Source of the DNA: Polytrichum commune
Taxonomy: Eukaryota; Streptophyta; Polytrichopsida; Polytrichales; Polytrichaceae
Assembly (NCBI GenBank): GCA_950295325.1
Contig: OX485806.1
Location: 15,748,001-15,812,000 of the forward strand
Reading direction: 5' to 3'
DNA length: 64,000 bases
This document shows, in pieces, positions 10,001-61,450 of this stretch. Numbering within the stretch: the stretch's first letter is position 1; each line of letters starts with the position of its first letter. The notes beneath the pieces were generated by a model. It searched no databases and was not told the DNA's origin. It saw only the letters and a program-made list of their open reading frames with translations. Position numbers and translations under genes: made by a program.

Positions 10001-10470
10001 TTCTGCCCTGCACCCATCACTACGTCTGTGAGTAAAATCCACAAAGGCTCCGTTTTGATAGATTGAAATCAGTGCGCATTTTATAACTGCGTACAAATGA
10101 TTAGAACCACTTTGGATAATATTAACTCTGTCTTAGCTGATTTTAGATGGAATGCACTAAAACATCTTCACAGACCTCTAGATCCATATAGCAACACCTG
10201 TTTCACATCGATCCAACACATCAAACTACAACATTGAATCAATGCCAACCAGAGTATAGGGTTGCACTCGAATCTTCTTGTTTCTATGTTTTATAGTTTC
10301 AAGATTTGAAAGGTTGAAATATGAGTTGATTCAATGTTGAATGAATCGTTAGCTAAATGTTCGAGTTAGCTTTGTAAAGATATTAAACCCTCAAGCGCAT
10401 GTAATGACACTGCCTCAACACTAAAAGCTAGCCACTTACATTTTGAGATGATGACATTGCAAGTAGTCAT
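7010..10470. mobile_element. Structure with about 300-bp inverted ends (possible TIR or fold-back element)
   Basis: The left arm (about 7010-7330) and the right arm (about 10185-10470) are diverged reverse complements. For example 'attcattcaacaatgttgattcaactcat' on the left pairs with the inverse of the stretch at 10330-10370, and 'ttgtagtttgatgtaatt' pairs with the inverse of 'aactacaacattga' near 10225. About 2.9 kb lies between the arms and holds no recognisable gene, only a (TCTA)n tract. It could be a non-autonomous DNA transposon with long TIRs or two unrelated copies of one repeat in opposite orientation. No target-site duplication was found. Confidence 0.45.
7619..7645. repeat. (TCTA)n microsatellite
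   Basis: Roughly seven uninterrupted tetranucleotide units. Confidence 0.9.
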
Positions 10471-26138: not shown

Positions 26139-26650
26139 CTATGCCGTTTAAGGTCTTTGGTGTCACATACACTATTTGCGAAGGGCCCAAACTTAGATGC
26201 CTAGAGGTCGTAAAGTGTCACATCCACTATTTGCCAACATGATACTATTCATTAACTGAAGTAAGTTTTTAAAGTGAAAAAATATTTACAGTATTACATT
26301 AGTGTAGAACATTGAGATGATATGTTGTGTTTTAGTATGCAAGGGGAGAATATTATTGAGTTCATTGATGGCAAGTGTCATGTCTTTACATTTTAGTTTG
26401 CAAGAGGGAGATATTCTTGAGCATACTAATGCCAACAATCATTTGTGAACACTTTAATCAACTTGTAGACCAGTGTGTAACATAAGCATACATCTCATAA
26501 GTTTATTGAACATACTCATGCCAAGATAGTGTTATGTGCACTTGAACGTCAAGTGGCATGAGGTGACACTAATGGTAAAGTTGTTGGTCAATAGTGTAAC
26601 TTAGCATACACCTCAAAATAGGATAAGTGACACCAAGGGCTACTTCACAC
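26139..26650 (+). mobile_element. MITE family C, copy 1
   Basis: The ends read 'ggtctttggtgtcac' and, inverted, 'gccc ttggtgtcac'. The interior aligns with 30326-30800 throughout: 'actatttgcgaagggcc', 'agatgcctagaggt', 'cttgtagacc...gtgt', 'attgaacatactc', 'atgaggtgacac'. No reading frame. A partial copy lies inside the large MULE at 39357-39515. Confidence 0.7.
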
Positions 26651-30325: not shown

Positions 30326-30800
30326 GTACACCATTTATGGTATTTAGTGTCGCGTACACTATTTGCGAAGGGCCTATACTAGATGCCTAGAGGTTTCAAA
30401 GTGTCATGTCCGCTAATTGCCAATATGATTTCATTGGTCAACATAATTAATTTTTATAAGTGAAAAAAATATCTACATAATGACATTTAGAGTAGCACGT
30501 TGGGTTGGTCTTGCACTATAGTATGCCATGGGAAGATGTATTTTAGCATATTAGTCGCAATGTCATTTGTGTACACTTTAGTCACCTTGTAGAGTATTGT
30601 GTCTCATAGGCATGCACCTCATAACACTATTGAACATACTCGTGTCAGGATATTAGTAAGCGCACTTGAATGCCAATTGTCATAAGGTGACGCTTATGGT
30701 GAATTTGTTAATCATCAGTGTAACCTAGCATACACTCAAAACAAGGTAAGTGACACTAGTACGCATGTGACACATAATACCCTAAATGGTGTAGTACAAA
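30326..30800 (+). mobile_element. MITE family C, copy 2
   Basis: The left end 'caccatttatggtatttagtgtc' is matched by the inverse of the right end 'gacacataataccctaaatggtg', and both are flanked by TA. The length of about 470 bp and the interior match copy 1 at 26139-26650. It is a non-autonomous TIR element. Confidence 0.75.
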
Positions 30801-38766: not shown

Positions 38767-38776
38767 AGCTTGATTG
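38767..38776. repeat. Left 10-bp target-site duplication of the large MULE
   Basis: AGCTTGATTG, identical to 58060-58069. Length is in the 8-11 bp range of Mutator-like insertions. Confidence 0.85.
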
Positions 38777-38807
38777 CAGGAATGCTACGATGTGAGCGGT
38801 GAGCAGA
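38777..38807 (+). repeat. Left terminal inverted repeat of the MULE
   Basis: The inner 17 bases TGTGAGCGGTGAGCAGA (38791-38807) are identical to the inverse of 58029-58045. The motif 'gtgagcaga' is repeated again at 38812-38820, so the subterminal region has a direct repeat that could be a transposase-binding motif. Confidence 0.8.
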
Positions 38808-38976
38808 TTTCGTGAGCAGAAAATTAAAATTAAAAACTCCATTTAATGAAAGTTAGGACCCTTATGACCGTGGATTTTGCACATATTTCAAGCATATTTC
38901 CCAAATTTATTGACAAAAAGAACCTATATCCATGGTGGAGGAACCTATACTGTATTTGCTTGCACCTTCTCTTAGA

Positions 38977-39165
38977 AGGTTTGTAGGTTGGGAATGGGTC
39001 TCGGATGGTTACAGGTTGTCATTTGAGGTGGACTAAGTCCCACTTGGAGACCACCTAGGATCCGAGGCCTCATGGCTGCGGTATCATTTCAAATTGGGTA
39101 TAAGGTTTAATTTGTAGGTTGGGAATGGGTCTCGGATGGTTACAGACTGTCATTTGAGGTGGAGG
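38977..39165 (+). repeat. Direct duplication of a 50-bp segment near the left end of the MULE
   Basis: 'tttgtaggttgggaatgggt' through 'catttgaggtgga' occurs at about 38980-39031 and again at about 39113-39163 with only two differences, about 130 bp apart. Confidence 0.8.
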
Positions 39166-39356
39166 GTTTAGGGGTGGCTTAGATTTCATGTTCGGTATCG
39201 GCATGGCCACTTTGGACAAGGCCTAGGGGTTTTATGTTTGATTTGAGGTCAAGTATATGGCTTCAGGTTGAATGTGGGCATGCCATGTTTGGGTTTCATG
39301 CTTAGCTACATTCAACCTGACTCCATAAATTTGACCTCAAATCATTGGTTTCGGGT

Positions 39357-39515
39357 TTAGTGTCGTTGGTGTACACTTTAGTCAACTTGTAGACCATTGT
39401 GTAATATAGGTGTGCACCTCATATCATTGTTGAACATACTCATGCAGAGATATAAGTAAAGACACATGAATGCCAAGTTTCATGAGGTGACACTAATGGT
39501 TTAGGGTCATTTATT
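39357..39515 (+). mobile_element. Partial MITE family C copy inside the MULE
   Basis: 'tttagtgtcgttggtgtacactttag', 'aacttgtagaccattgtgtaat', 'ttgaacatactcatg' and 'catgaggtgacactaatgg' match the 3' two-thirds of the copies at 26139 and 30326. Confidence 0.7.
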
Positions 39516-39546
39516 CAACCCAGCATTCGCCTAAGATCGCAAGCAA

Positions 39547-39846
39547 TCATTGAAAAAGTGTATGAAAACGATAATAGAAGCCAGAACCATTATCATCAAG
39601 ATTGCCTTCTTCATCTGCATCACTATCACCAAGGATAGTAATTACGCCTGCCAGGTTCTCAACCTGTATGCCTTCCTCTACCCCCAAGGCTTCCTCCACA
39701 CTGACAACATCATCAATGTCTTCCTCCTCCACGTCATCAACCTCAACCTCATCCCCGGGAACCCTTAAATTTAAAAGAGAAGGGTATGAACTAATTGGCC
39801 GATTATGGAATTCAGTGATGAACAATCGAATTAATCGTAAACTCAA
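39547..39846 (-). CDS. Acidic ORF, possible 3' exon or separate small gene of the MULE
   Basis: The open frame contains a strongly acidic stretch ('VPGDEVEVDDVEEEDIDDV', then 'GDSDADEEGNLDDN') and ends at TGA 39549-39547. The N-terminal third reads poorly, and a 'tttaag' acceptor-like site at about 39766 would start an exon just before the acidic part. The same acidic style is seen at the end of the methyltransferase-like gene, 220 bases away on the same strand, so it may be an alternative last exon of that gene. No known domain is recognised. Confidence 0.35.
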   Translation of the reverse strand: MSLRLIRLFITEFHNRPISSYPSLLNLRVPGDEVEVDDVEEEDIDDVVSVEEALGVEEGIQVENLAGVITILGDSDADEEGNLDDNGSGFYYRFHTLFQ

Positions 39847-40067
39847 ACATTAACAAGTAACAAAGTGGTGTTCGAAAATATTTTAAACAATATCAGAAAA
39901 TACAAAGTCAAAAGTGAACTTAAATATGCAATTTCATATATGCAATCCCATAAACTCCGAAAGTAACACACATACAATGAATTCCATGCGGATGAGTGCA
40001 CAAACTGAAAAACCAACGGAAGAAAAAACGGTATATTAGATAGTACACAGACATTCACATGAAGATA

Positions 40068-43000
40068 TTACATCAGATCCGAATCACTGTGATCACCTGA
40101 TGATGAAGACATTGTAGGATCACCAATATCGGCATCAGAGGAGGCCTGACCATCAGATTCTAAAGCTTCTATATCCAAAAATTCTAAAACTCTTCCCGGA
40201 CGATATTTAGATGTAAAAGTCTGATAAGAACCTCCAGCTAGTTGATTAGCAATATCATTTGCATATGTAGGAAGTTGCCAAGACTTTGGAGGGCTGGGAT
40301 AGAATTTAGGGTCACAAAAAAAGGCCGGTAAATAGGATTGCTCAATTCATCGCATCTGCAAATGCCAATGGTACCATGTTCATAACTCAACTTTAGAAGA
40401 AATGACAGCAAAAAACATAACACTGGTAAGAGTATTTGTGGACCTTACTCACTTAGTAAAGCGAGATCTCTTCACAATCCTCTCTACGGGGATATCGTCA
40501 CCCTCAGGATCCTCTAAACTGGTGACACGGTCTTCAAGAGTGACTTCAGAGGCTGCTCTAGAGACAATCAATGGAGCAAGTAAGGCCTCAAAGATATCAA
40601 CATCAGCCTCTAATGCGGCAATGTGACGGTGCACATTGCGGCATGCATGAATGGAAGATCCTGCAAATAAAGAAGTTGGAAAAACTTAGTACAAAAACCA
40701 TTATAAATTATGTACACCAAAACAATATAAACGATTAGCAAACTGAAAGGGAAGATTACAAAGACATACCGGTCGCTGCCGTGCAATCTAGAATAATATC
40801 CCATGGGGAGCTACATGCTTCAATTAGCATTTGCATGAGAAGCACGGACTTTTCACAAGGCCCTCGCCATGGTGTGGATGCATAAGTTAGCTGGTCCTCA
40901 CGAGAGACCAAGTTCTGGAGAATATCATCCCGTTCAACATCCACCCCATAAGGATCCAATTCAGGGACATGGCGAAATGAAAACTTCGATGGAGGTGACC
41001 CCGGCACGCTCCTGACCGCCAATGTAATACCGAACCTCATGGTCTACAATGTACCAGACATAAAGAACAATATTAATTTACAAAGTAATGAACACAACTG
41101 CGTAAGTATAATAGTTAGGTGGGTCTACACTTTGAACTACCGGAAGGATTAAATTGAAACTGAATGCGGTGATCAGAAAAATGACTGAAGCTGTATCTTA
41201 TAGTTGATGCTGGATTTATTGGGGATGTAAGATGAAGGCGGTTCATTCCCCACCACTCTTTCCGAATTGCAAAACCATACGATTTGCAATATCCAAGAAT
41301 ATTGGACTTCGTACTCATGCGAAAAGGGTGAAACAAAATAATTGCCCCGTCGTCATGGAGATGTTCGTCGGCAAAGTCAAAGAGTGGTTGTAACCACTCT
41401 TTGGATTCTTGATTCCAAGCGGGAATGGAGGACGGTGGGTTTGATATGCCAGGAACAGGAAGACCTTCCGGTATATCTGCAAGAATCAAGTCCAAACAGG
41501 GATGGTCCTCCGGAGAACCCTTGTAGTACCGGGTTTTGTCTTTTGAGTGCTGCACAATCAAAGGTCAACAAGGTTTGGTGTGAAAAAAATCCTCCTTGCT
41601 TTGTAAATTGCCTAGTACAGGAATGAAACATTCAAACTAAACTAAACTGAGCTGAACTAAACTAAACTAAACAAAAACAAATTCAGACCCTTAAAAGAAC
41701 CATACTGAACTAATCTAACCCAAACTAAAACTAAACAAAACTAACATACATTCAGCCCTTGAAGAGAAATTCAGACCACATCAGCTCAGAGGCAACTACT
41801 TACAATCAAAGTTGAATATCTGAACCCCCTACCCTGTCACCTCCAAATTCACAAACCAGCCCCACCCAGAAAGTGTTTCGGGCCCGAAACATTAATTCAG
41901 AACTAACTCTACCTACTACTACTTAGTGTTTGACCAAAACTTCAATCTACCTAACTGAACTGAACTAATCTAAACCAAACCAAACCAAACTAAACAAAAC
42001 TAACATACATTCAGCCCTTGAAGACCAATTCAGTCCACATCAGCTCAGAGGCAATTACATAAAATCAGACTTGAATATCTGAACCCCCTACCCTGTCACT
42101 TCAAAGATCACAAACCAGCCCCCCCAGAAAGTGTTTCGGGCCCGAAACATTAATTCAGAACTAACTCTACCTACTACTACTTAGTGTTTGACCAAAACTT
42201 CAATCTACCTAACTGAACTAATCTAAACCAAACCAAACCAAACTAAACCAAACTAACATACATTCAGCCCTTGAAGAGCAATTTAGTCCACATCAGCTCA
42301 TGGGCAACTACATAAAATCAAAGTTGAATATCTGAATCCCCTACCCTGTCACCTCCAAATTCACAAACCAGCCCCCCCCCAGAAAGTGTTTCGGGCCCGA
42401 AACATTAATTCAGAACTAACTCTACATACTACTACTTAGTGTTTGACCAAAACTTCAATCTACCTAACTGAACTAATCTAAACCAAACTAAACTAAAAAA
42501 AACTAACATACATTCTGCCCTTGACCCTCAATTTAGTCCACATCAGCTCATGGGCAACTACATACAATCAAAGTTGACTATCTGAATCCACTACACTGTC
42601 ACCTAACAATTCACAAACCAGCTCCCCCCAGAAAGTGTTTCGGGCCCGAAACACTAATTCAGAACTAAGTCTACCTACTACTACTACATATTTTACCCTA
42701 ATCACTAAGTTCATAACTGAACTAATGTATACCAAACTAAACTAACAAATCTAACATACCCTAAGCCCTTGAAGATAATTTGAGTCCACATCAGTTCATA
42801 AGCAACTATTTACAATCAAAGTTGACTATCTGAATCCCTACCCTGTCACCTCCAAATTCACAAACCAACCTCCCCCTAGAAAGTGTTTCGGGCCCGAAAC
42901 ACTAATTCAGAACTAACTATACCTACTACCACTTAGTGTTTGACCAAAACTTCAATCTACCTAACTGAACTAATCTAAACCAAACTAAACTAAGAAAAAC

Positions 43001-46000
43001 TAACATACATTCAGCCCTTGACCCTTAATTCAGTCCACATCAGCTCATGGGCAACTACATAGAATCAAAGTTGACTATCTGAATCCCCTACCCTGTCACC
43101 TCCAAATTCACAAACCAGCCCCCCCCCAGAAAGTGTTTCGGGCCCGAAACACTTAGTCAGTGCTAACTCTACCTACGAGTACTTAGTGTTTGACCAAAAC
43201 TTCAATCTACCTAACCGAACTAATCTAAACCAAACTAAACTAAACAAAACTAACATACATTCAGCCCTTGAAGAGCAATTCAGTCCACATCAGCTCAGAG
43301 GCAATTACATACAATCAAAGTTGAATATCTGAACCCCCTACCTTGTCACTTCAAAGATCACAAACCAGCCCCCCCCCCCAGAAAGTGTTTCGGGCCCGAA
43401 ACACTAATTCAGAACTAACTCTGCCTACTACTACTCCATGTTTCTCCCTAAACTAAACTGAAGTATCCTACCATATCAAATCCAGCATAAAATCTAGCCC
43501 CTCCCAATATGTGTTTCGGGCCCGAAAAACTAATTCAGAACTAACTCTACCTACTGATAGGTAGTGTTTGACATTAATTCTAGACCATTAATACCAATTC
43601 AGAACCGAGCCACATATTCAAATCAAAATCTACCTAATACTTCTAAGTGTTTCCCCTTAATCACCAACCACAAGCATCCAAACAAAACTAAGTTGAGCTG
43701 AAGTAAATATACTTTAAAAGCAAATTCAGACACTTAATACCAACTCAGAAGCATCCTAGTTCAGCTCAGTTTAGTTTAGGAATGAACCCTTTTTGAATGA
43801 AGGAGTTTAGAAACACATTGATATGCATAAATTCCAATGCAAACATGTTATGACAAAAGTGAGTTAGACCATTACCTTGAGCATGAATCTTTTCAACTCG
43901 TTGTAGGAAGGGGTGAATTCCTCAGTGTCACCGCCAAGAACGTCCTCTAATGAGGAGTTGAGAATGAGCTCTTCAATATGGATCTCGAGCTCCTCCCCCA
44001 ATGTCAAAATAGGAATTTGACTCAACTGCTCGTAGGATGAATCGCGTTTTGTTCCTCTAGAAAATGTTGGAGCATGAGAACCAGATTCATATGTGGGACT
44101 TGGAGCAACGGGACTCTTACCTTCTGGCTCCGGGGGGGGGGGTCCATCTTCTTCTTGCCCTTCTTCGTGGATTTCTCCAGTGAATTCTGTAGCTTCTCCC
44201 GCTCTCTTTGATCTGCTCTCTCCTCAGCCTCTTTAACCCTCAACGCTTTCTTTCGGTCCTCTTCGATGCGTTTTTTTATTGCCTTTGCCCTCTCATTCTC
44301 ATCTTCAATGCCCTGTAAGTCCAACATTTCAATTCCAGACTCACCTACATCCTCCCTTGACTTTCGGATCTCAGTCTCAAACGAAGGAGTAAAACTTGGA
44401 GCGCAATCCAGATACCAGGCACCGCCGGTAAGGTGAGAAGATGTCCACGTGCGTTGTTGAAGAGCCGAGAACATGCAGGCTGAATTCGATCTATCAAGCC
44501 ATGTAGTCAAGAATACAGGAAGGTCTTCTTTGGAAATAGCTCCTTTGGCCATAAGCTCGTACTTAAAGTACCTGTGTTCAGAAATATGTGTTAACATTAC
44601 ATTATAGAAATTTCGAACTAGGAAATCACAAAATATGAACTGATATAAATGAAGAGTACTTAAAGAATTAAGACGTACCTATAAAGTACTCTGCGGACAA
44701 CAAGGTCAGCTCCATTGAATCCAACAAAGTCGTCACCTTTTTTAAAGGAATCGGGTCCTCTGAAATAGGTGTTGAAAACATGGTCCCACAACTTCATGCG
44801 ACAATCTTCGATATACACTGGCAACAACATCGGTTCACTGGCAACAGTCATGTTGATAGGAAGTCGGTCTTGACGCATGGTCTCATCAAAAATAATACAG
44901 GCCTGCTCAGAAATCTGATAAGCAAGACAATAAGCATCAGCTGGACATCAAATGTATGATTGCGTCAATGAAATTATGAATGAGTGGACTTACTCCTGCC
45001 CAGAAACTTGCTTTAGCCAGGAAATTTGCCAATCTCTCTTCGTTGATGGGCTTGGGAGGTAGCATGCGGGCCTCGCGAGTAGAAACAGATGAATTAAAGT
45101 ATTCTAGCCATTTTATTTTGAATGTCGGAGACGCCTTAGAAGTTGCAATGAGCTGCAGCTTCTCCAAGTTGAGTTCCGGTGAGAGTGAGTGTAGGGTGTA
45201 ATGTCGTTCAATCTGTGTGACAGAGACTTTGTGAGTTCCGAAGTCCTCTTGTCAAGGATAAGCCCCCCCTAATTAGTGTTTCGGGCCCGAAACACTAATT
45301 CAGAACTAACTGTACTCACTAATACTTGGTGTTTGACGCTAATCACTAAGTTCAAACAACCAAACTCAACTAATGTAAACCAAACTAAACTAAACAAAAC
45401 TAACATACAATCAGCCCTTGACCCTCAATTTAGTCCACATCAGCTCATAAGCACCCATTTACAATGAAAGTTGACTGTCTGAATTCCTACCCTGTCACCT
45501 CCAAATTCACAAACCAGCCCCCCCCAAATTAGTGTTTCAGGCCCGAAACACTAATTCAGAACTAACTCTTTACCTACTATTACTTAGTATTTGACCCTAA
45601 TCACTAAGTTCAAACAACCAAACTAAACTAATGTAAACCAAACTAAACTAAACTAAACTAACATACAATCTGCCCTTTTGACCCTCAATTCAGTCCACAT
45701 CAGCTCATAAGCACCCATTTACAATGAAAGTTGACTGTCTGAATTCCTACCCTGTCACCTCCAAATTCACAAACCAGCCCCCCCCAAATTAGTGTTTCGG
45801 GCCCGAAACACTAATTCAGAACTAACTGTACTCACTAATACTTGGTGTTTGACGCTAAGCACTAAGTTCAAACAACCAAACTGAACTAATGTAAACCAAA
45901 CGAAACTAAACAAAACTAACATACAATCTGCCCTTGAAGAGCAATTCAGTCCACATCAGCTCATAAGCACGCATTTACAATGAAAGTTGACTGTCTGAAT

Positions 46001-49000
46001 TCCTACCCTGTCACCTCCAAATTCACAAACCAGCCCCCCCCCCAAATTAGTGTTTCGGGCCCGAAACACTAATTCAGAACTAACTCTTTACCTACTATTA
46101 CTTAGTATTTGACCCTAATCACTAAGTTCAAACAACCAAACTGAACTAATGTAAACCAAACCAAACTAAACAAAACTAACATACAATCTGCCCTTGACCC
46201 TCAATTCAGTCCACATCAGCTCATAAGCACGCATTTACAATGAAAGTTGACTGTCTGAATTCCTACCCTGTCACCTCCAAATTCACAAACCAGCCCCCCC
46301 CCCAAATTAGTGTTTCGGGCCCGAAACACTAATTCAGAACTAACTCTTTACCTACTATTACTTAGTATTTGACCCTAATCACTAAGTTCAAACAACCAAA
46401 CTGAACTAATGTAAACCAAACCAAACTAAACAAAACTAACATACAATCTGCCCTTGACCCTCAATTCAGTCCACATCAGCTCATAAGCACCCATTTACAA
46501 TGAAAGTTGACTGTCTGAATTCCTACCCTGTCACCTCCAAATTCACAAACCAGCCCCCCCCCAAATTAGTGTTTCGGGCCCGAAACACTAATTCAGAACT
46601 AACTCTTTACCTACTATTACTTAGTATTTGACCCTAATCACTAAGTTCAAACAACCAAACTGAACTAATGTAAACCAAACTAAACTAAACAAAACTAACA
46701 TACAATCTGCCCTTGAAGAGCAATTCAGTCCACATCATCTCATAAGCACCCATTTACAATGAAAGTTGACTGTCTGAATTCCTACCCTGTCACCTCCAAA
46801 TTCACAAACCAGCCCCCCCCAAATTAGTGTTTCAGGCCCGAAACACTAATTCAGAACTAACTCTTTACCTACTATTACTTAGTATTTGACCCTAATCACT
46901 AAGTTCAAACAACCAAACTGAACTAATGTAAACCAAACTAAACTAAACAAAACTAACATACATTCAGCCCTTGACCCTCAATTCAGTCCACATCAGCTCA
47001 TGGGCAACTACATAGAATCAAAGTTGACTATCTGAATCCACTACCCTGTCACCTCCAAATTCACAAACCAGCCCCCCCAATTAGTGTTTCAGGCCCGAAA
47101 CACTAATTCAGAACTAACTCTACCTACTACCACTTAGTATTTCACCCTAATCACTACGTTCAATCTACCTAACTGAACTAATCTAAACCAAACTAAACTA
47201 AACAAAACTAACATACATTCTGCCCTTGAAGAGCAATTCAGTCCACATCAGCTCATGGGCAACTACATAGAATCAAAGTTGACTATCTGAATCCACTACC
47301 CTGTCACCTCCAAATTCACAAACCAGCCCCCCTAATTAGTGTTTCGGGCCCGAAACACTAATTCAGAACTAACTCTTTACCTACTACTACTTAGTAATTG
47401 ACCTAATCACTAAGTTCAAACAACCAAACTGAACTAATGTAAACCAAACTAAACTAAACAAAACTAACCTACATTCAGCCCTTCAAGAGCAATTAAGTCC
47501 ACATCATCTCAGAGGCAACTACATAGAATCAAAGTTGACTATCTGAATCCACTACCCTGCCACCTCCAAATTCACAAACCAGCCCCCCCCCCCAGAAAGT
47601 GTTTCGGGCCCGAAACACTAATTCAGAACTAACTCTACCTACTACCACTTAGTATTTGACCCTAATCACTAAGTTCAATCTACCTAACTGAACTAATCTA
47701 AACCAAACTAAACTAAACAAAACTAACATACATTCAGCCCTTGAAGAGCAATTCAGTCCACATCAGCTCGGAGGCAACTACATAGAATCAAAGTTGACTA
47801 TTTGAATCCCTACCCTGTCACCTCCAAATTCACAAACCAGCCCCCCCCCCCAAATGTGTTTCCGGCCCGAAACACTATTTCAGAACGAACACTATCTACT
47901 ACTACTGCAAATTTGACCCTAATCACTAACATATATTCAGACCAAGAAGAGAAATTCATTGTACATCAGCTCGTATTCAACCAAATACAATCAAGTTTGA
48001 CTATCTGAATCCTCTTCCCTATCATATCCATCTTCAGAAACCAGCCCCTCCCAGTGTCCGACCCACAAATCCATAACCAAATCTACCTACTTCAGCTCAG
48101 TGTTGACCCAAATCACTAACCAGACCCTACCTTAAAGTCGAAATGGATTCCTCAGGACCAGCAGCAAACCAACATCAACCCAACTGACTACCAGAAAACC
48201 CAATACCCTATCCCCTCAATCCGTCCCTCAAATCATCCAACCTCACCAACCTCGCCCTCGCCCTTGCCCTCTAGATACCAGAAATCTAGATACCTGCCAA
48301 CTAGATTCCGATACCAACAAATCCAGCAAATTTCCAATCATCCCTCAAGCCTCGCCAACCCTCGCCCTCACACTCTATACCAGAAATCTCTATACAAGAC
48401 ATCTAGATTCCGATACCACAAATCCAAACCTTCGAGCTTCGAACCCTCCAGCACATACCAGATTCACACATTCGAGTTCTGTGGTCGAATGCCTACCTCT
48501 TCCCCGAACTGCCTCTCCTCATTATCCATACTGCCTTCCAACAGATCTACAACATCAACGTCGCGATTCTCCTTTCCTCCCCTTAACTCAACATCCTCAG
48601 CATCCTGCTCGAAATCTCCAATCCTCAGAGGTTTAGTGGATATGTCCTTTGGTCACTTTCTCCGAGGTTGGCCTAGAAAACTGTTGGCTTTGGAAAGACA
48701 TATTACCCTAAACCCAACACCCTAAAAGTCACCAATTGAGAACATTCTTAACAAACCTGCTGCTCAATATTGTCTGATCTTGAGGCACTCGAAGCTGCCC
48801 CCGTTTGAAGCTCAGTCTGAGTCATTACCTGTTCCAGATGCCGAGGCCACTTCGATGTTACATTCGAACACCAAATAAAAAAAAAACCATAATTGAGCCG
48901 AGATCATTGCCCACTCTACAACGTAAGTTAATGGGTCGTTAACATTAAAATTGCTCATAAAATTATATCATTATGGATGAAGATAATCATCACCTCACTG

Positions 49001-49387
49001 CCCCCTTTGTCAGCAAAGTTGTCTTCTTCTGATACTAGAAATATAACGATTGGAGCTAGAAGAATTACACCCTAAATTCAAACTGAATGTAATGTAACAA
49101 GAGCATACCTGAATTCCTTCATTTTCCACAGAGGTGTCTTCCTCTTCTAATGAGAATAACCTAATGGGAGCAACCTCCGCCTTTTCAAATGACTCAACAT
49201 TTCGCTTTGAACGACTGTGCGTAGCCTTTGTTGAATTATCCCCTTTTCTTCCCATAGTTGACCTCAATTTGTACGGGGTCACTACGTTATCTCTAGTTAC
49301 AAACCACTCCTTTCTCTCAATGCGCTTCTGTTTCTCAATAGTCCTCCTCACTTCTCGTTCTGCTCTCACTTTCGACCGAGTGTTCAT
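40068..49387 (-). CDS. Methyltransferase-like protein (N6/N4-MTase fold) encoded by the MULE
   Basis: Proposed minus-strand exons: 49387-49109, 48849-48757, 48646-48497, 45245-44994, 44914-44679, 44571-44121, 44056-43876, 41549-41141, 41043-40770, 40660-40453 and 40355-40068, about 940 residues. A further small exon near 49040-48977 is possible. Most borders are GT/AG with matching phase. The first exons are basic, then acidic. The middle (45.2-43.9 kb) is an unrecognised globular region followed by a Lys/Glu-rich coiled-coil-like helix. The last four exons resemble a beta-class DNA methylase: 'DLILADIPEG' in the place of motif IV (D-P-P-Y), then 'EKSVLLMQMLIEAC', then motif I 'DCTAATGSSIHACR' and 'IAALEADVDIFEALL'. 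The tail is Ser/Asp-rich. The frame needs correction at C11 (44142-44132), at a G4 in the 41043-40770 exon, and at T7 (40326-40316), all homopolymers. The enzyme would methylate adenine or cytosine if active, but motif IV is atypical. Early exons are the least certain. Confidence 0.6.
41640..43560. repeat. Palindrome-bearing tandem satellite, array 1 (intron)
   Basis: About eight units with spacing of roughly 245-260 bp (the last is shorter), each centred on GTGTTTCGGGCCCGAAAC, at about 41871, 42131, 42388, 42631, 42881, 43131, 43386 and 43510. Each unit also carries a C-run of 4-10 just before the palindrome, 'ctacctactactacttagtg', 'aaccaaactaaac', 'acatacattcagcccttga', 'gtccacatcagctca' and 'taccctgtcacctcc'. 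The array lies wholly between exons 44056-43876 and 41549-41141 of the methyltransferase-like gene. Confidence 0.9.
43876..43884 (-). other. Splice donor used to set the exon before array 1
   Basis: The minus strand reads 'ctcaag|gtaatg' with the exon ending at 43876 in phase 0. The next usable acceptor in phase is 'attgtgcag|cac' at 41550-41549, so the whole satellite array is treated as intron. Confidence 0.55.
45256..47890. repeat. Palindrome-bearing tandem satellite, array 2 (intron)
   Basis: About eleven units, about 258 bp each, with palindromes at about 45276, 45532, 45791, 46050, 46308, 46568, 46827, 47088, 47341, 47600 and 47858. In most units of this array the palindrome extends to 30 bp by flanking AATTA...TAATT. 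It is the same family as array 1, and neighbouring units are nearly identical (for example those centred at 46050 and 46308), which indicates recent homogenisation. The array sits between exons 48646-48497 and 45245-44994. Confidence 0.9.
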
Positions 49388-49759
49388 CTCTAACCATACT
49401 GAAGCATCTAGGCGCCATGATTATGTTCCTATTATCTTGGATTTAGATAATTAACCTGCAGTTTCTTTAATTATTCCTCGGTTTATACACATTGCATTAA
49501 AACGCTACAAATGGCGCCGCTATTGTCTAATCTACCTAATCGGTGTCAGCTATATGGTGGTGATAAAGTAATTACTATTATTGTAGTACATTCTAATCCT
49601 ACATGAAACATGTTGTCCACAAGTTACATGAATAAATATTGACTATTAGTTCATCTACCAGGTTGTCAAATATTCGGGTATTAGTGTCTACCCTTCTTGT
49701 ATATAATACCCGATTACTTGTACCCATTCCTTCCTGTCATCTCATCATATTCTTCTCCA
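49388..49759. promoter_or_regulatory. Divergent promoter region of the MULE genes
   Basis: Lies between the leftward ATG (49387) and the rightward ATG (49760). On the plus strand 'tatataata' (49700-49708) is 52 bp upstream of that ATG, in good TATA position. No equally clear box was seen for the leftward gene. Divergent transcription is inferred from gene orientation. Confidence 0.45.
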
Positions 49760-50185
49760 ATGGATACTGGTGGTCTCCCAATCCTTGCTCCTTTAGATGC
49801 TCTTAGTTCATCGCAAATCCACACCACATTGTCCATGGATGCTTCTGCAGTCGTCAACAACATGAAGACTGCCAACCCCGCTTACTGCTCACTTACTCCG
49901 GCGGTCGCAGATCACACTCCACATCCACGGACACCATCTTTGCAAGCGGATGATGCAAATATGATAGAACACAAGTCTACTTTCCATAATCATGCCTATT
50001 CCAGAGTAGCGGTTATTAAACCGGGAACTTACTCTAGATCTCTATCAAAGAGTGCTTCACGTTCCAAAGGTCAGGGACTCAGTTGCGCAGGATGCAGTGC
50101 AGTTCATAGTTTAGGGATTGACCATTGTCATAAACATGACGGTGACAAATATGGCAAAGGTCCCCATAAGCGTCTTCGTCGTTAA
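49760..50185 (+). CDS. Small Cys/His-containing ORF of the MULE
   Basis: 141 codons from the ATG at 49760 (downstream of a TATA-like box at 49700) to TAA. The first 100 residues are Ser/Thr/Pro-rich. The C-terminus has 'CAGCSAVHSLGIDHCHKHDG' and ends in basic 'GPHKRLRR', a possible nuclear-localisation sequence. The Cys/His spacing suggests a small metal-binding knuckle, though no named family is recognised. It lies 500 bp upstream of the transposase gene on the same strand, so it could be a separate accessory protein or an upstream exon of that gene. Base use resembles the other element exons. Confidence 0.5.
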   Translation: MDTGGLPILAPLDALSSSQIHTTLSMDASAVVNNMKTANPAYCSLTPAVADHTPHPRTPSLQADDANMIEHKSTFHNHAYSRVAVIKPGTYSRSLSKSASRSKGQGLSCAGCSAVHSLGIDHCHKHDGDKYGKGPHKRLRR

Positions 50186-51638
50186 TCACAATGTGGCATT
50201 CTATTTGTTTGAATTTATTACTGCATAGCTACTATCATGCTCTCCACATTATTCGTGGCGGCCGTCATTCTCATGGCCTTATTTGCCAATATCAATTTTA
50301 ATGTCCCTTACATCCACTAAATGGTTCACGTGGTCTCTGGTGTATTTATAATTATAGCACTCGGCATTCAGCCTCATGTTTGTTCTTAATATATATACAT
50401 TGGATTGGCATATGATCATATCTAACTTAAGTAATTGTTGCATTGTATTTTCAGTTCTTAATCATGTTGCTATCATGAGTGGGCTTATTATTCCACTACT
50501 AATCCAAGTCTCCGCCGTCTTTCACAGATTCCCTCTTGCCATCGCCTGCTAATCACATCACTACATACACAGCCCCACTGTCTGCTCAGCTTAAGTCCAT
50601 TGCCCATTTGGCCACTCCCTTTTGTGAACTCGCATTTACATTCCTCCTACAATGGCCACCATTTGAGCACTGCACCATTCCATCCCCCTTATGATCCCTC
50701 TAGGAGATGATGGTCTAGCCAAAGTCGCAGGGTCGTTCCTTAGTTTGAGGTTTAGTCTCAACCCAGAATCAATTCATATCGAGGAAGAGGTCTTTAATGA
50801 CAACGGTGACTTGAGTCACACTGTCCTTCAGATGTCCTTTCGCATTGACGATGCTAGAGTTTGGTTCTTGCTCCCTGGAAAGTACAAGGCCATAGGCGTC
50901 ACCGAGTCCGATATGGCCACCACAACTGTGTTGCTAACACCAGGCGTATCCCTCACCTCCACCACGCAGGCTCCTCTTCTGGCGACGGTCAAGAAGGAGC
51001 CCGGCATCGAAGAGGTTACCTTGCTCAGCGATGACTCTGATGATGATGTGCCACCTGCCTCTGACATTACCCCACCTCCATCGCAGGATCAGCCCTTCAT
51101 CAATCCTCTCAGGATTCCACACTCGCCTGCTGTAAGTCAACCATCTACTTCCAGACCCCCAGTTCACCCAGGTGTGTCTATAGATCGTCCCAGTGTTGTC
51201 CACCACTCAAAGTTGCTTGCAACCCGACCAGGGTCCAAGAACGTCCTCAAGAGTATTGATTATGAATCTGTTAGGCTTGAGAAGGTTGAGTTCCTCCCAT
51301 CAGTTTTTGACGGCGACGTCATCTTTGAGTTCCCTCCTCTGGGACCTGATGCTCCCCATTCCCATGCTAGACTCATGTTCGGTATGGACAAGCGTTTCGA
51401 CGGTCATGCTTGGTGTAGGACAAAGACTTCTAACATTACCAATGATCTCGGCTTGACCTTCCGGTTTTCCAATTGTGTTGGCCATCTCTGTTGTCATAAC
51501 GAGGCATGTGATTACCTCAACCGCCCCAATCGAGCCACTGACTTCAACGAGACCAAATGGGAAGGCTGTACCGCCTCACCCTTCACCGCAGATGCTGATC
51601 CCCCAGCTGGGTCAACTCTCGTTTGTAAGGTCTGTAAG

Positions 51639-51643
51639 ACACC
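51639..51643. repeat. 5-bp target-site duplication (left) of the insertion in the transposase gene
   Basis: ACACC, repeated exactly at 54794-54798 on the other side of the insertion. Confidence 0.8.
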
Positions 51644-52054
51644 TGTGAGCCCGAAATCGTACTCACATTAATCCTTAATCGCAAAAAAACATGGCTAACA
51701 CGTCGATTTCATGGTTGATAGAACTAGTAGGTGATGGGAAAGGTAAGGTGTTAAATATCTCGGTGGAATTAGGCTAAAAAAAAATGATTAGGAACTTGGA
51801 GAGAAATTAACCTTAGGGGACTAAAGGGGAATAAGGCATAAGCGTTTCATGGGGAGTCTAGTAAAAGCATGCTTAAAAGGACCAAGAAAAACCAATAGAA
51901 TAAGAGGAGGGGGTCATGACGGTGACCGTTATTTATTGAATGATATTTACACGGATAGCTCAGGAGGATGGGTAAGAGCCGGTTGGTTGGATACTAATTT
52001 CCTGCCTAGAAATCACTAGCCAAGTCATGTGTAACACATGAAACGATCACACGA

Positions 52055-52125
52055 ACTCGACGGGAGTCGAACCCGGACCGTTTAAAGTGTCGTACAAATT
52101 CCCTCCCTCAACCAACCGAGGAAAC
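52055..52125 (-). other. tRNA-like pol III promoter boxes inside the insertion
   Basis: On the minus strand a good A box 'TGGTTGAGGGAG' (52114-52103) is followed about 30 bases later by an exact B box 'GGTTCGACTCC' (52073-52063) with flanking 'ccggg...cccg' stem. The acceptor stem does not pair, so it is not a functional tRNA. It resembles the head of a tRNA-derived SINE or an old tRNA copy. Confidence 0.45.
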
Positions 52126-52224
52126 ATGACTTGGTGACCACAACCATAACGACTCACAACTTATACCACAACGCGAGCGTGATTACTTGGTAACAACTAT
52201 GGTGGGTTACTTTTATCGTATCTA

Positions 52225-52226
<2 letters not shown>

Positions 52227-52257
<31 letters not shown>
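52227..52257. repeat. (TATC)n microsatellite
   Basis: Seven to eight uninterrupted tetranucleotide units, within the LTR-like insertion. Confidence 0.9.
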
Positions 52258-55200
52258 GAGTTTTATTTATCTATGAGGCTAGGGGGATAAGAAGTCAATG
52301 GAAGAAAAGGGAAAGTGGGTTTGGAAGGAGGAGAGGCCAAAAGAAAAGGTCTTGACCCGTTTTTCTCTCGGGCGGCCCGGAAGATGCCGGGCAACCCGGG
52401 AAAAAAAGGGTAGAGGTTGGAGGGGTCTCCGGAGGTAGAGGCAAGGAGAGCTCATTATGCATGGCTAGAGGAAGAGGAAGAGAGAGATAGCAAGAGGGCG
52501 AAGCCCTGCCAAAAAATACATGTAGAAGTAGAGTAGGGGAGAAGGAGAAGGAAAAGAGGGCGAAGCTCTGCTTCGTGGGAAAATGAGAGAAGGTCGGAGA
52601 GGGAGAGAGAGAACCAGGAGGACGGGAAAAAAACTTCCACGATGGTGGATGTGTTCGGTGCAATGATGCTTCTAAAAAATAGGTGGGTGCAATTAGGAGG
52701 GAAGAAGGAGCATAGTCACGGTGACCCCAGCTCCATCACGGAAGGAGATCCAGGGCTGAAATGCTGTGTGAGGTTCTCCCGGGAAAAGGCTGGACAACTC
52801 ATCAATGCCGGCACGGTCTGTGCGGATGCGTTGAAAGGGTGAGGGGGAATGATGGTGCCGTGTCAGGCCTTGTATCGCGTCTGCAGTCCACACCCCCGGC
52901 ATGCGCAGATTGCGTTCATCGTTTTCCCTTATTTCTGTTGCCGCCAGGTGAACTTGTAAACTCTGCCTCCTTGTTATGGACCTAAGTCTAGTGATTAAGA
53001 TTTGCGCTGGGACACCGAGTTGGAGGATGGGAGCTCCGCCGGAAGCATCGTTTAGTCGTTAGGAAGCTGGTTGGAGTCGTAGGTGCAGTGGGTGATCTAC
53101 AAGGGCAGTGAATACAACATGGATGTGGAGATCGGAGAGGGGGACTAGAGAAGGAAGAGAGAGCGTGATAGAGAAAGGGGGTTCAACACCGAAGCATTCG
53201 ACATCGGATCCTGGGGGTCGCGGTCACACCAAAGGAGTGGACTTCGGATCAGCAACCATTCTGCCACTATAAAGACTACTATACGTTATCATGCGTCGTG
53301 AGGCATCAAGAGGGAACGGCCTGCAAGTCGTTTTTATGTTGGTTGCGTTAATTGTTCGGTGTTGCATCTCCTCGCGTGCGGTATGGGTGTGGGCGAGCTG
53401 TGACAGTGAGCAACTTGGCATTCGAAGCTAAGGGATAGCGGGAGCAAAGAAGCTATTGTGCAAGGTCGGTTGGAAGTGTGACACATGTGGTGTGTGCACG
53501 GATGGCCGTGGATTGAACTCCTGGTAATGCTCATGATTCGGAGTGGGGGAGGATACCATCAGGGAGTCCCCACGACATTCTTGAGTCATCGGCTGCTTAC
53601 AGCGCAAGGTCTCCTTAGGTAAAGAGAGAGAGAGGGGGGGATCAGATTACCAGTCTTCCCAAGTTCTGTTGTGTTGAGAGGGATGAAAGGTAATTAGTGT
53701 TAAATTTTGTGTGTGAGCATGCGGAATTGTGAAAGTGGTTGGGGTCGGCCCACGAATGAAGGATTCTGGATATGGTTGGACGACGAGGAAGGCGGACAGT
53801 AAGAGGGACATCGTGGCTTGTAGGAGGCAGTTGCGGCCTTTGAGCACCGGCATTATCAGGGAATTATCCGTCTTATGGTGTAGCTCTGTCATGGATTGAT
53901 CAGTGCCAGAAGGAATGTGCACAGGTGAAGGGAATGTGGCAGGTTAAGGCGGTTGGCGATTGCATGGTTGCGGCTTATCAAGGTGGGTTGAGGCGCGAGG
54001 CTCTTGACCGCATCCCCAACTGGGACTGACTCCGGTAGCACCACTGACGAGGCGGTGTCCTTAATAAGACCGAGAAGAGAAAGCGGGACAAAATCAGGGT
54101 GAGCACAAGGGCCACATTGGGGAAGATTAATCCGAGAGGAATAAGGTAAGTAGTAGAGAGGAAGGAAAATTGGCAGAGTGGTGATTCGGCAAGGAGACCG
54201 GAGCGTTGTTCGAGGCACAAGAATGGTTGATGAATGGGTCAGATGCCCTTCAATAGCGGAAGCGACGAGGGTGCTAGTCACAAGGAGATAGGTGCAGCAA
54301 CCGGCCACAAGTCCCAGGCATGCTTAGGCTAGGGAGTAAAAGGAGTTAGGTAACGGTAATGCAGGGTGAGATGGTTGAAAGAGGAGCACAGGTTATCACA
54401 CGGAGGGTTGTGAGCTCTGAGCTGGAACTAATTCGTGTTGTGGTCCAACATACTATGCTTGGCTTGAGATGTTGTTGGGCTAAGGCTGTGAGCCAAATGC
54501 CTTGGGTTAAATGGATGGGAGAGGGTTAGATTCATTGGCTAGTAGGAGGAGGTGGTGACCATTAGCTTGGTAGCAAAGGGAATTTAATGGGTGCATTGTT
54601 GCTTTGACATTGTAAGACGATCAAGCATTTGTGAATGCTTGCTTGAGTTAATAAAAAAGAAAAGGGTGTTATACACACCACTTCTCCCAATCTCTCCCTT
54701 GGTTGCAATTGTGATTTGCTAACTCGAATGTGGCTCAAGAACCCTCACCCGGACTAGGACGCAATTGAAGGGTGAGGGGGATTTGGGCTCACAACACCAC
54801 CCTACTGTCTTGATACTTGCCAAGCTAAGATGTACTATGTTTTTGGCAAAGGTGACATGACCCGTGCATGCATCCATATGGGTCTTCACCATCACCCCGT
54901 TTCGCATGGTGTCTGTAGAGAGTCTAAGGTTGAGATTCATGATCTCATTGGTAGAGAGGTTGAGAGGACTCCCACCGCCACCAACTCTGCCATTGCATTG
55001 GCTGCAAGTAAAGAGTTCCTGGCCAAGTATCTTCTACGCACGGGATCTGATCCCAATAAAGTTATGGACCTCGAGTCCATGAAGTTTGTCATGGACAGGT
55101 CCCAACACCTCAGCACCCCGAGTATTCGTAACACAGTCACTTCCTTCAAGCGCATTGGCCGAGGGGGGATCATTGACAGCATCACCGGACTGAGAGGTCA

Positions 55201-58028
55201 TAGCAGTTGGCCCTATGTGCAAGAAAACAAATTCCCAGGCCAAGGAAAGTTGTTGGAGAAAGTCTACGTGTTCAAGATGTCCGAGGTGGGCCCTGGGTCT
55301 GGAGTGGACCTTGTCAGGAGAATGCAACCACACGGTGATTTGCAGGATGCTTGGGTCATGTTTGACCATGTCAAGCGTGTCAAGGGGTGGACAACCATGG
55401 CTTGCCATGTCTATGACTCGGCCTACTGCCGGGTTATGACTATTGCAGTATGTGATATGCAGTCTGAGGATGTCACGGCGCAGAGCCTTCTTTGGCATGG
55501 GCTCAATGAAGTTATGCTCAGACATGGCATTGCTAAAGTTAACTTCAAAGGGTTCATGGCGGACAGTGCATAGGCCAATTGGAATGCAGTTAGGATTATC
55601 TATGGCAGCGGTGATCCCAAGGTTCCTATGGAGTCTCGCGAGAGGACATGTCTATTGCATTGGACAGTGTCTATGGAGCGCCACACCGCCACCCACATCA
55701 AGCCCGACCTCCAACAACAACACAAGTTGTTATGCAAGCAGTACAAGGATGCCAAGACTCCCGAGCAGTCCGAGTCCCGTTATCTTGCCATCCGAGCTTG
55801 GTGGCTTTCCTCTGGAGCTGCATCCGAGGAAGGAATCAAGGACCTTGATACATGGCTTGCATTCTGGCACTTTCGTTACCGTCAATGGGGTGGTTTCATG
55901 CAACTAGTGAGTACCCACCCACAGTGTGTGTTTCAGTGTTTTTGGTCTGAACTTTTTTTTTGGATTTTTTTTGGTTTTTTTGGTTTGGTTTTTTGGTGTC
56001 AATTTAGGCTTTCACCCTGTTTTTGTACAAAGCGTACTCACTACATTTTTTTGATTTCTCTCAGAATTTCACAGATTCTGAGTTGGCAGAGATGCCATCG
56101 TGCAACCTCTCCGAGACAGTCCATAACAAATGGCTTCAGCAGTCTGGAAACCGTGGCTCTGATCTATATGTTGCGACCGTGGATGATTTCGTGAGGGCGT
56201 TCATGCAATGTACGAACTACTACGCCTACTTGAAGGGTGATCGCTCTGGTACTGGCCCAGGAAAAGAAGAACTCTGCCTTCGTGCTGCACAACGATCCGG
56301 TGACGCCAAGAGAATTGTTGCAGCACTGGAGCACATGCCTGGAGCAGAGCATTGGTGCACCCGCAAACCCCAACTCGAAGGAGAGGAGGTCTTTGGCACC
56401 ACCAAGCGCAAACTTGATATGCCCCCTGGTTCTGAGCAGGATTCACATAGACCCGACAAGGTCAGCTTCTCTCATCCACGAGTGAGCACTAGGTCTACCA
56501 AGGCACGTACTGATTCCTCCACACCATCAGACCTGCCCCTAACACAATCCCCTGAGAAATCGATTCCACAACAGGTCACCCACGTCAATAACATTCAGGA
56601 GACCCACTGCGATGTCTCCAAGTGGCACATTTCTAGACTTCCCAAGACTTCTGCCAAGGCCTGCTTTGCCATGCAAGCTCGCACAAAGACCAAGTGCACA
56701 CAGAAGATCGTTCGGCACGGTAAAAACACTCCAGCTCCTACATACACTGGCTACATGCGCGACTACAAGAAGAACAAGGAATTCTTGACACAGTTCTTCT
56801 TCTGCAACGACGACATCGAGAGATGTGTCAAAGGCACCAGGAGGAAGTGGGTGCAGCACCGTCCGGATGTCCCGGACGTCTGGCCTGTCCTCACTGGGAC
56901 AAACCTCACTTTCCAGGAGGTTCTGGCCCTTGAAGAAGGGGGATTCCAACTTCACCAGCGTCAAGATGTGTCACCCAGAAGACTCTTTGGCGACTCCTCC
57001 AATGTTGCCTCATCCATGGCTGAACTCCCTACCCCGGCCCAAGCTGATCAATACCCTACGCTCAGGTTTGGAAAGAAGATCCGACGTAGTAACAACGGAC
57101 CATGCGTGCAACAACGCAACAAGTGGGAGTCAACTCTCAACGTCGACGGACAAATCACCTCCGTCACAATGATACCTCACCCAGGGATCGGCTGCATCAT
57201 TCTCTTCCAGTCCCGAAAGAAGGCTAAGGTGGAAGACTACCGTATCACTATCAGCACCTTCCCGTCGTGCACGTGCCCGGATTTCGTGGAGATGTCAGCA
57301 AGAGCACTTGGGAAGCGGCGCCCTTGGGTGAACTGCAAGCACTTGTACTTCATCTTCCGTGTGACCTGCAACTTGGATCAATACCAAGACACTTTCATCC
57401 ATGCTCCGAGCCTTAGTTTCAATGAAGTGAAGCACCTCCTCGAAAGTGGCATCATGAAGCATGTGGGACCTTAGCGTGGATACCTATAGGAGCTAGGCTG
57501 CCCCCCCTTATTTATAAGTTGTCGCTAAGTATTATTGCGTTGAGTATACTATAGTATGAGTGCACGTTTTCCGAAAATATCGCCGATATATCAGACCTAT
57601 CATTATCTACATGATGTGAATTGTATTCGTTTTTAAATATCTATAAAGGTTTCTAAATATTTATGGGTCTCTCCTTCCAACAGTAGTTTTAGATGTTATT
57701 GAATGGTACGAGTTTTGCTACTTTGCTTGAATGCTTGAATGCTTGAATTTTTTGACTTAGAATTTTCTCTTACGTAGTGACCATAGCCTATGATTATCCG
57801 GCTCTCACCATAATATGGACAGTCAAAAGTTCCCTGGTTTAAGTAAATCATGTCAACTAGTCTCTCTGAAAGGTACCCTAAAACCAAGTCTCTGTCCTGA
57901 AAGCCCTCAAAATTTGCACGGAAATAGGTCCATCATTTTTACTAAAAAAAGAGGTCCCACGATTTTTACTATTTATATTTTCTAAATTTGGAATTTTTAT
58001 TACTATAATTGGAAAGCATTGACTTTTT

Positions 58029-58059
58029 TCTGCTCACCGCTCACACGGTAGCGTCGTTG
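58029..58059 (-). repeat. Right terminal inverted repeat of the MULE
   Basis: Reverse complement begins CAACGACGCTACCG and continues TGTGAGCGGTGAGCAGA. It pairs with 38777-38807 at 25 of 31 positions. Confidence 0.8.
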
Positions 58060-58069
58060 AGCTTGATTG
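58060..58069. repeat. Right 10-bp target-site duplication of the large MULE
   Basis: AGCTTGATTG, identical to 38767-38776. Confidence 0.85.
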
Positions 58070-60873: not shown

Positions 60874-61204
60874 CTAGCGAAAGCCGTTGCTGCGCATCAT
60901 CTGTGTTGCTGAGGAGAACGCCAAGTTTGCTGCCGCCCACGCTCGCCGCTGCCGCCCAAGTCGATGCCCCCGCCCAAGTTCGCTACCCCGTCCAAGCTCG
61001 CTGCCGCTGCCCACGCTCGCCACCACCGCTCAAGATCGCTGTTGTAATTTGCCACGACCGCCCAAACTCGTTGTTGGTGACCAAACTCGTTGTTGCTGCT
61101 AACCGGGATTGTTTTCCCCTGTCGTAATGTAAATACGTAGACTATATAGATGTGTACGTATTTAATATTGCATTGTGATTCTTGGCCTTGTAGAAAAATA
61201 ATAA
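60874..61204. other. GC-rich, GCC-repeat-like sequence, no gene recognised
   Basis: Imperfect repeats of 'cgcccaagtcgatgcccc', 'cgcccaagttcgctacc', 'gtccaagctcgctgccgc' and similar phrases. Open in two frames because of the repetition, with no domain seen. Confidence 0.4.
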
Positions 61205-61450
61205 AGAATAGAAGTAGATTACTTTTTTATTTACTCATAGTTTATTTTAGTTATCATTACCTAAGGATAGAAGTGGATAGAAGTTGCTTACCTTTATGTT
61301 TACTCATAGTTACTCTTAGTTATCTTTACCAAAGGATAGAAGTTGCTTACCTTTATGTTACTCATAGTTACTCTTAGTTACCTTTACCAAATGATAGAAA
61401 TAGATTACCTTTTTATTTACTCATAATTTATTTTTGTCTTTTAGTTATCT
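61205..61450 (+). repeat. Tandem repeat, about 63-bp unit, four copies
   Basis: 'gatagaagt(t/a)g(c/a)ttacctttatgtttactcatagttactcttagttatctttaccaaag' recurs four times with divergence. No coding role. Confidence 0.85.

Follow-up and report, generated by a model that had tools for sequence, protein, structure and literature searches.

To our knowledge, few transposon-encoded proteins that counter silencing have been described. The closest described system is that of VANDAL21/Hiun, an Arabidopsis Mutator-like element (MULE) with the genes VANA, VANB and VANC. In the available text of the two source papers, the VANC21 protein sits on the non-coding parts of VANDAL21 and causes loss of methylation, binding short motifs in tandem repeats, some of which lie upstream of VANA21 and within the introns of VANC21 and VANB21 (PMC5735166; PMC10398659). 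Other mobile elements have taken up genes that act on chromatin or DNA, according to the accessible portions of the corresponding papers: SET genes in MULEs of Phytophthora (PMC6446971; PMC12730594), Dam-like or DNMT genes in DIRS and other retrotransposons of dinoflagellates and charophytes (PMC5890265), and a 5mC oxidase gene beside the transposase in DNA transposons of other superfamilies (PMC12730594). Rotifer N4CMT shows that a bacterial-type PF01555 domain can reside in an intron-containing eukaryotic gene; this is a host gene with an intact SPPY and a chromodomain, and the available text does not report it in a transposon (PMC8885841). Our literature search, which left most subscription papers outside its range, found no report of a PF01555 gene carried by a MULE; in the version of PMC6446971 available to us, the word "methyltransferase" is absent from the main text and the table gives SET but no DNA methyltransferase.

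The locus analysed here has features in common with each of these systems. Like VANDAL21, it has a gene besides the transposase, with tandem repeats in the introns of this non-transposase gene; the VANDAL21 papers, in the text available, do not describe VANC as a methyltransferase. Like the Phytophthora MULEs, it would associate a gene of chromatin-modifier type with a MULE, but SET methylates histones and has no relation to PF01555, and the host group is different. The retrotransposons carry cytosine-C5 or Dam-like enzymes, whereas the domain found here is of the beta-class PF01555 type and lies in a putative DNA transposon; the 5mC oxidase transposons also place a DNA-modification gene next to a transposase, the modification gene being of another kind.

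The window (the whole stretch of DNA that was analysed, 64,000 nucleotides of Polytrichum commune) contains an element of 19,283 bp between two copies of AGCTTGATTG, which occurs exactly twice in the window (0.24 occurrences expected by chance; Table 1). The 31-bp inverted ends share 25 of 31 bases, including an unbroken run of 17. Since the best inverted match beside a repeat in 60 dinucleotide shuffles (30 scanned with 9-base and 30 with 10-base repeats adjoining inverted ends) was 21/31, we rejected a chance origin of this bracket. Without the nested insertion described below and one copy of its duplication, the element measures 16,128 bp: it was about 16.1 kb long when it inserted and grew to 19.3 kb when it was itself hit by another insertion. 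It encloses two divergent genes, a transposase-like gene on the plus strand and a second gene on the minus strand. Only 373 bp separate the start codon of the latter from a small putative ORF, in which no Pfam or NCBIfam family was found.

Table 1. Coordinates in the window of the features of the element.
Feature	Coordinates	Strand	Remarks
Left target-site duplication copy, 10 bp	38767..38776	+	Exact repeat search
Left terminal inverted repeat, 31 bp	38777..38807	+	25/31 bases shared with the right repeat
Second gene, ten modelled exons	40068..49387	-	By-eye model, GT-AG at every modelled border
Second gene, exons 1-5	49387-49109, 48828-48757, 48646-48497, 45212-44994, 44940-44679	-	Predicted
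Second gene, exons 6-10	44571-43876, 41549-41141, 41043-40770, 40660-40453, 40355-40068	-	Predicted
Exons of the beta-class N6/N4 methyltransferase-like domain	40453..41549	-	Profile matches and alignment
Motif X and start of motif I	40771..40860	-	PCEKSVLLMQMLI 40822-40860; DCTAAT 40771-40788
Candidate motif IV	41427..41477	-	NPPSS 41427-41441 or DIPEG 41463-41477
Tandem array 1, 6.9 copies of about 250 bp	41704..43435	-	Within the intron separating exons 6 and 7
Tandem array 2, 10.3 copies of about 260 bp	45263..47929	-	Within the intron separating exons 3 and 4
Intergenic ORF, 141 codons	49760..50182	+	60 bp after TATATAA at 49700; putative coding
Transposase gene, interrupted	50691..57471	+	TAG at 55571-55573; apparent GT-AG intron 55907-56064
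Nested insertion, 3,150 bp, TG..CA ends	51644..54793	.	ACACC duplication on each side; interrupts the transposase frame
DDE-like motifs	55352..56133	+	MFDH 55352-55372, MADSA 55553-55570, CLLH 55649-55663, NLSETVHNKW 56104-56133
SWIM-like CxC..CxH	57268..57351	+	Motif by sequence
Right terminal inverted repeat, 31 bp	58029..58059	-	25/31 identical to the left one
Right target-site duplication copy, 10 bp	58060..58069	+	Exact repeat search

The terminal inverted repeats of MULEs are often long but are absent in some, and a SWIM-type zinc finger is frequent without being universal. The plus-strand gene encodes, in this order, CIHMGLHHHPV (54869-54901), MFDH, MADSA, CLLH, NLSETVHNKW and CxC..CxH, candidate motifs that would fit a DDE transposase of the MULE type. 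Pfam found no MULE domain in this gene and NCBIfam none in two pieces of it. The Pfam SWIM profile scored 14.5 bits (E 0.026), under its cut-off of 19.6, the best PDB match (E 0.039) is an unrelated protein, and the single-sequence fold prediction of a transposase piece (mean pLDDT 36) was too poor for a fold search. The 10-bp duplication is within the range of 8-11 bp given for MULEs, and the terminal inverted repeats, at 31 bp, are short yet within the 20-40 bp tabulated for some MULE groups (available parts of PMC6446971, including its table). Filed by duplication length, ends and motif order, without a profile match, the element is very probably of the MULE type. An earlier note on this DNA had claimed a perfect 10-bp duplication and 31-bp inverted ends around a divergent gene pair, and both the bracket and the two genes on opposite strands within it were recovered; its further claim of a MULE transposase held for the ends, the duplication length and the ordered motifs, but found no match to a MULE profile.

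Both genes are broken. The transposase is interrupted by the TAG stop and by the 3,150-bp stretch, which starts with TGTGAGCCC, ends with GGGCTCACA and has ACACC at both sides; when its flanks are joined, they give one open frame, TLVCKVCKTPPYCLDTCQAKM. This stretch inserted later; its 5-bp duplications and TG..CA ends are of the sort that LTR-type elements produce. It showed no internal pair of long direct repeats, and it may be a solo LTR or something else. An ordinary intron at 51.6-54.8 kb was considered and rejected because of the 5-bp duplication at its ends and because the flanks join in frame. Within the insertion, at 52040-52120, a stretch on the minus strand looks by eye like a possible tRNA-like B box; ARAGORN found no tRNA gene in the window. 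The second gene has three frame breaks, at an 11-base homopolymer at 44132, near 40969 and at a 7-base homopolymer at 40316, and one phase mismatch between the exon ending at 44994 and the exon starting at 44940. Its frame breaks may come from assembly errors, above all at the two homopolymers. The copy of the element examined here, with both genes broken, is dead or decayed.

The second gene was modelled with ten exons encoding 788 residues; a doubtful eleventh exon (49028-48994) was dropped, being out of frame with its neighbours. Its C-terminal half very probably has a methyltransferase fold, judging from profile matches and alignment, as the earlier note had proposed when it described this half as beta-class N6/N4 methyltransferase-like. 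The domain of 298 residues, obtained by splicing exons and reading across the frame break near 40969, matches PF01555 with E 9.5e-7 and 29.4 bits (cut-off 26.7). The whole model, in which Pfam found PF01555 alone, scores 26.6 bits, just under this cut-off, and single exons reach E 0.012 at best. The domain also matches PHROG 3008 (E 2.3e-7; 7 families in all have an E of 1 or lower) and two DpnA chains at 2e-5, while the rest of the 18 PDB sequences with an E of 10 or lower have values of at least 0.42; its NCBIfam matches are all far below the cut-offs. Among 50,697 phage records, 316 match it at E up to 1, of which 2 cover at least 80% of the query, and the best E among the 20 matches listed is 3e-4. 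Viral contigs were scanned twice, and no relative was confirmed. Outside the domain, no DNA-binding domain was recognised: the middle exons have no Pfam family at cut-off, and 229 residues from them have nothing credible in the PDB. The single-sequence fold prediction of a methyltransferase exon (mean pLDDT 45) was again too poor for a fold search. A codon-usage test did not separate controls from genes, had 4 of its 14 training pieces in the wrong frame, and was discarded.

According to the gene model, the tandem arrays delimited and counted by Tandem Repeats Finder lie within two of the second gene's introns. Most units of array 2 contain a perfect 30-bp palindrome, and the palindrome is common to the units of both arrays: it recurs at 19 places if up to 8 of the 30 bp may differ, and the core TTTCGGGCCCGAAA is exact at 15 places. 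To measure its conservation, the units were cut at another sequence, so that the palindrome did not choose them; this sequence gives 19 places and 18 intervals, of which the 15 of 235-275 bp were aligned (6 from array 1 and 9 from array 2). The most conserved 22-column window is the 22-bp palindrome AGTGTTTCGGGCCCGAAACACT, with a mean pairwise identity of 0.969 vs 0.822 overall, a modest test because repeats that have been homogenised do not count as independent. In the rest of the window that was counted, AGTGTTTC is absent from 48110-58059 and occurs twice in 1-38776.

The element thus has a VANC-type feature, namely tandem repeats with a common motif in its own non-coding parts. We propose, tentatively, that the locus is a large Mutator-like element, present as one decayed copy, with two genes, one for the transposase and a divergent one whose protein, built on a methyltransferase fold, would recognise the element itself. 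The probable recognition site would be the palindrome, repeated every 250-260 bp in the two introns, where the protein might interfere with host silencing or control the transcription of the element. A self-acting role like that of VANC is by itself a possible but doubtful assignment, made by analogy. We nevertheless favour such a regulator over an active methylase because VANDAL21 has published repeats in second-gene introns and VANC21 binds motifs and removes methylation. The repeat unit differs from that of VANDAL21 in having a 22-bp palindrome, with putative binding, and the VANC21 motif YAGTATTAY is absent from arrays 1 and 2; any specificity would thus differ from that of VANC21. We infer the binding to the arrays, the effect on silencing and the lack of catalysis from a single copy of the element.

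Intronic satellites can arise without function. The arrays could be ordinary satellites of this kind and the second gene a passenger, a captured host gene or one acquired horizontally, with no role for the element; this is rather unlikely, yet in our judgement nearly as likely as a self-recognising regulator. MULEs often capture host sequence (available text of PMC6446971), the gene is multi-exon and broken in the examined copy, and one copy only is known. A passenger sits less well with the divergent arrangement and the short interval before the small ORF, and with the conservation of the palindrome. Ordinary host capture is also less simple if one considers that no eukaryotic homologues were reported for the rotifer PF01555 enzyme in the accessible part of its description (PMC8885841).

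The catalytic motifs bear on whether the second gene encodes, in working copies, an active N6-adenine or N4-cytosine methyltransferase that marks the element's DNA against silencing or guides the transposase. Beta-class methyltransferases have the catalytic pattern (D/N/S)PP(Y/F/W), which the second gene does not show. We aligned it with five phage methylases (5 of the 316 records, taken from the listed matches with long coverage), and it aligns with them over the whole permuted domain, in which the catalytic part precedes the AdoMet part. Both MAFFT and BLAST set NPPS opposite the phage DPPY, and the spacing after IPEG is that of DPPY after IPDG; the alternative motif IV is DIPE, after the strand-like LDLILA. 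Neither candidate has an aromatic residue, in contrast to DPPY in 5/5 phage sequences. Motif I reads DCTAATGSS against DFTMGSG(S/T)T in the phages, its first glycine being replaced by alanine. The AdoMet-side motifs are better kept, with the lysine of motif X retained along with the acidic residue that follows the next strand.

An active methylase is, on this alignment, unlikely. Its domain order and AdoMet-side motifs are like those of active enzymes, and if NPPS is indeed opposite DPPY, only the aromatic residue has been lost; the altered motif IV would then reflect the decay of the examined copy or a tolerated variant. The Dam-like methylases of DIRS elements and the rotifer enzyme, a PF01555 protein that works in a eukaryote, give precedents (PMC5890265 and PMC8885841, both in part). 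Against this stand the missing aromatic residue, the alanine in motif I and the substitution of APPA for SPPY in N4CMT, which according to the text available abolishes activity (PMC8885841). Methyltransferase activity of the examined copy is unlikely because motif IV has no aromatic residue and APPA kills the activity of N4CMT, and it is doubtful that the second gene ever methylated DNA. The enzyme marking its own DNA that the earlier note envisaged thus receives no support from this copy, with its motif IV and its two broken genes. That note had mentioned neither the nested insertion, the stop and the frame breaks nor the missing aromatic residue and the intronic arrays, of which the arrays weigh most for the mechanism. 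For the self-recognising protein that we prefer, the lack of an aromatic residue in motif IV suggests that the fold, related to that of bacterial-type beta-class DNA amino-methyltransferases, is more likely used for binding DNA and AdoMet than for methylation.

That the second gene and the arrays are another mobile element inserted into the MULE is very unlikely: nesting does occur here, as the 3,150-bp insertion shows, and the 140-bp stretch at 39361-39500 is also found twice outside the element, but no second pair of 8-11-base repeats beside inverted ends of at least 20/31 brackets the second gene.

Should other copies prove to have the second gene as well, the problem that VANC solves would have another solution, unrelated to the first, and a DNA transposon of the Mutator kind would join the mobile elements with DNA-methyltransferase folds. 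A MULE lineage might then have adopted a bacterial-type beta-class methyltransferase as an independent counterpart of VANC, one that reads a 22-bp palindrome amplified in the introns of its own gene, or, if the catalytic motif is kept, as a writer of 6mA or 4mC on itself, a scenario that we regard as speculative and improbable at present. The palindromic arrays offer a direct test of binding.

Several minor features accompany these. Seven flanking ORFs have no Pfam match at cut-off, and the window has no Rfam match at gathering score. Near the left end of the element, a 37-bp inverted repeat with a 32-bp loop (39239-39344) is 89% complementary, the stretch of about 140 bp at 39361-39500 is a dispersed repeat with further copies at 30561-30700 (82%) and 26439-26576 (79%), and an acidic, putatively coding open frame of 100 codons lies downstream of the second gene (39547-39849, minus strand). 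Outside the element, a tandem repeat with a unit of 58-69 bp occupies 61204-61425. One pair in the window agrees better than the ends of the element, with 27/31 at 13797/14243; it belongs to a separate short structure of about 450 bp (13797-14253) that is MITE-like or a hairpin and has the palindromic 10-base repeat TGGCATGCCA. A possible further inverted-repeat element of about 3.2 kb lies at 7156-10339, with the 8-base repeat CAATGTTG and ends that agree at 22/31.
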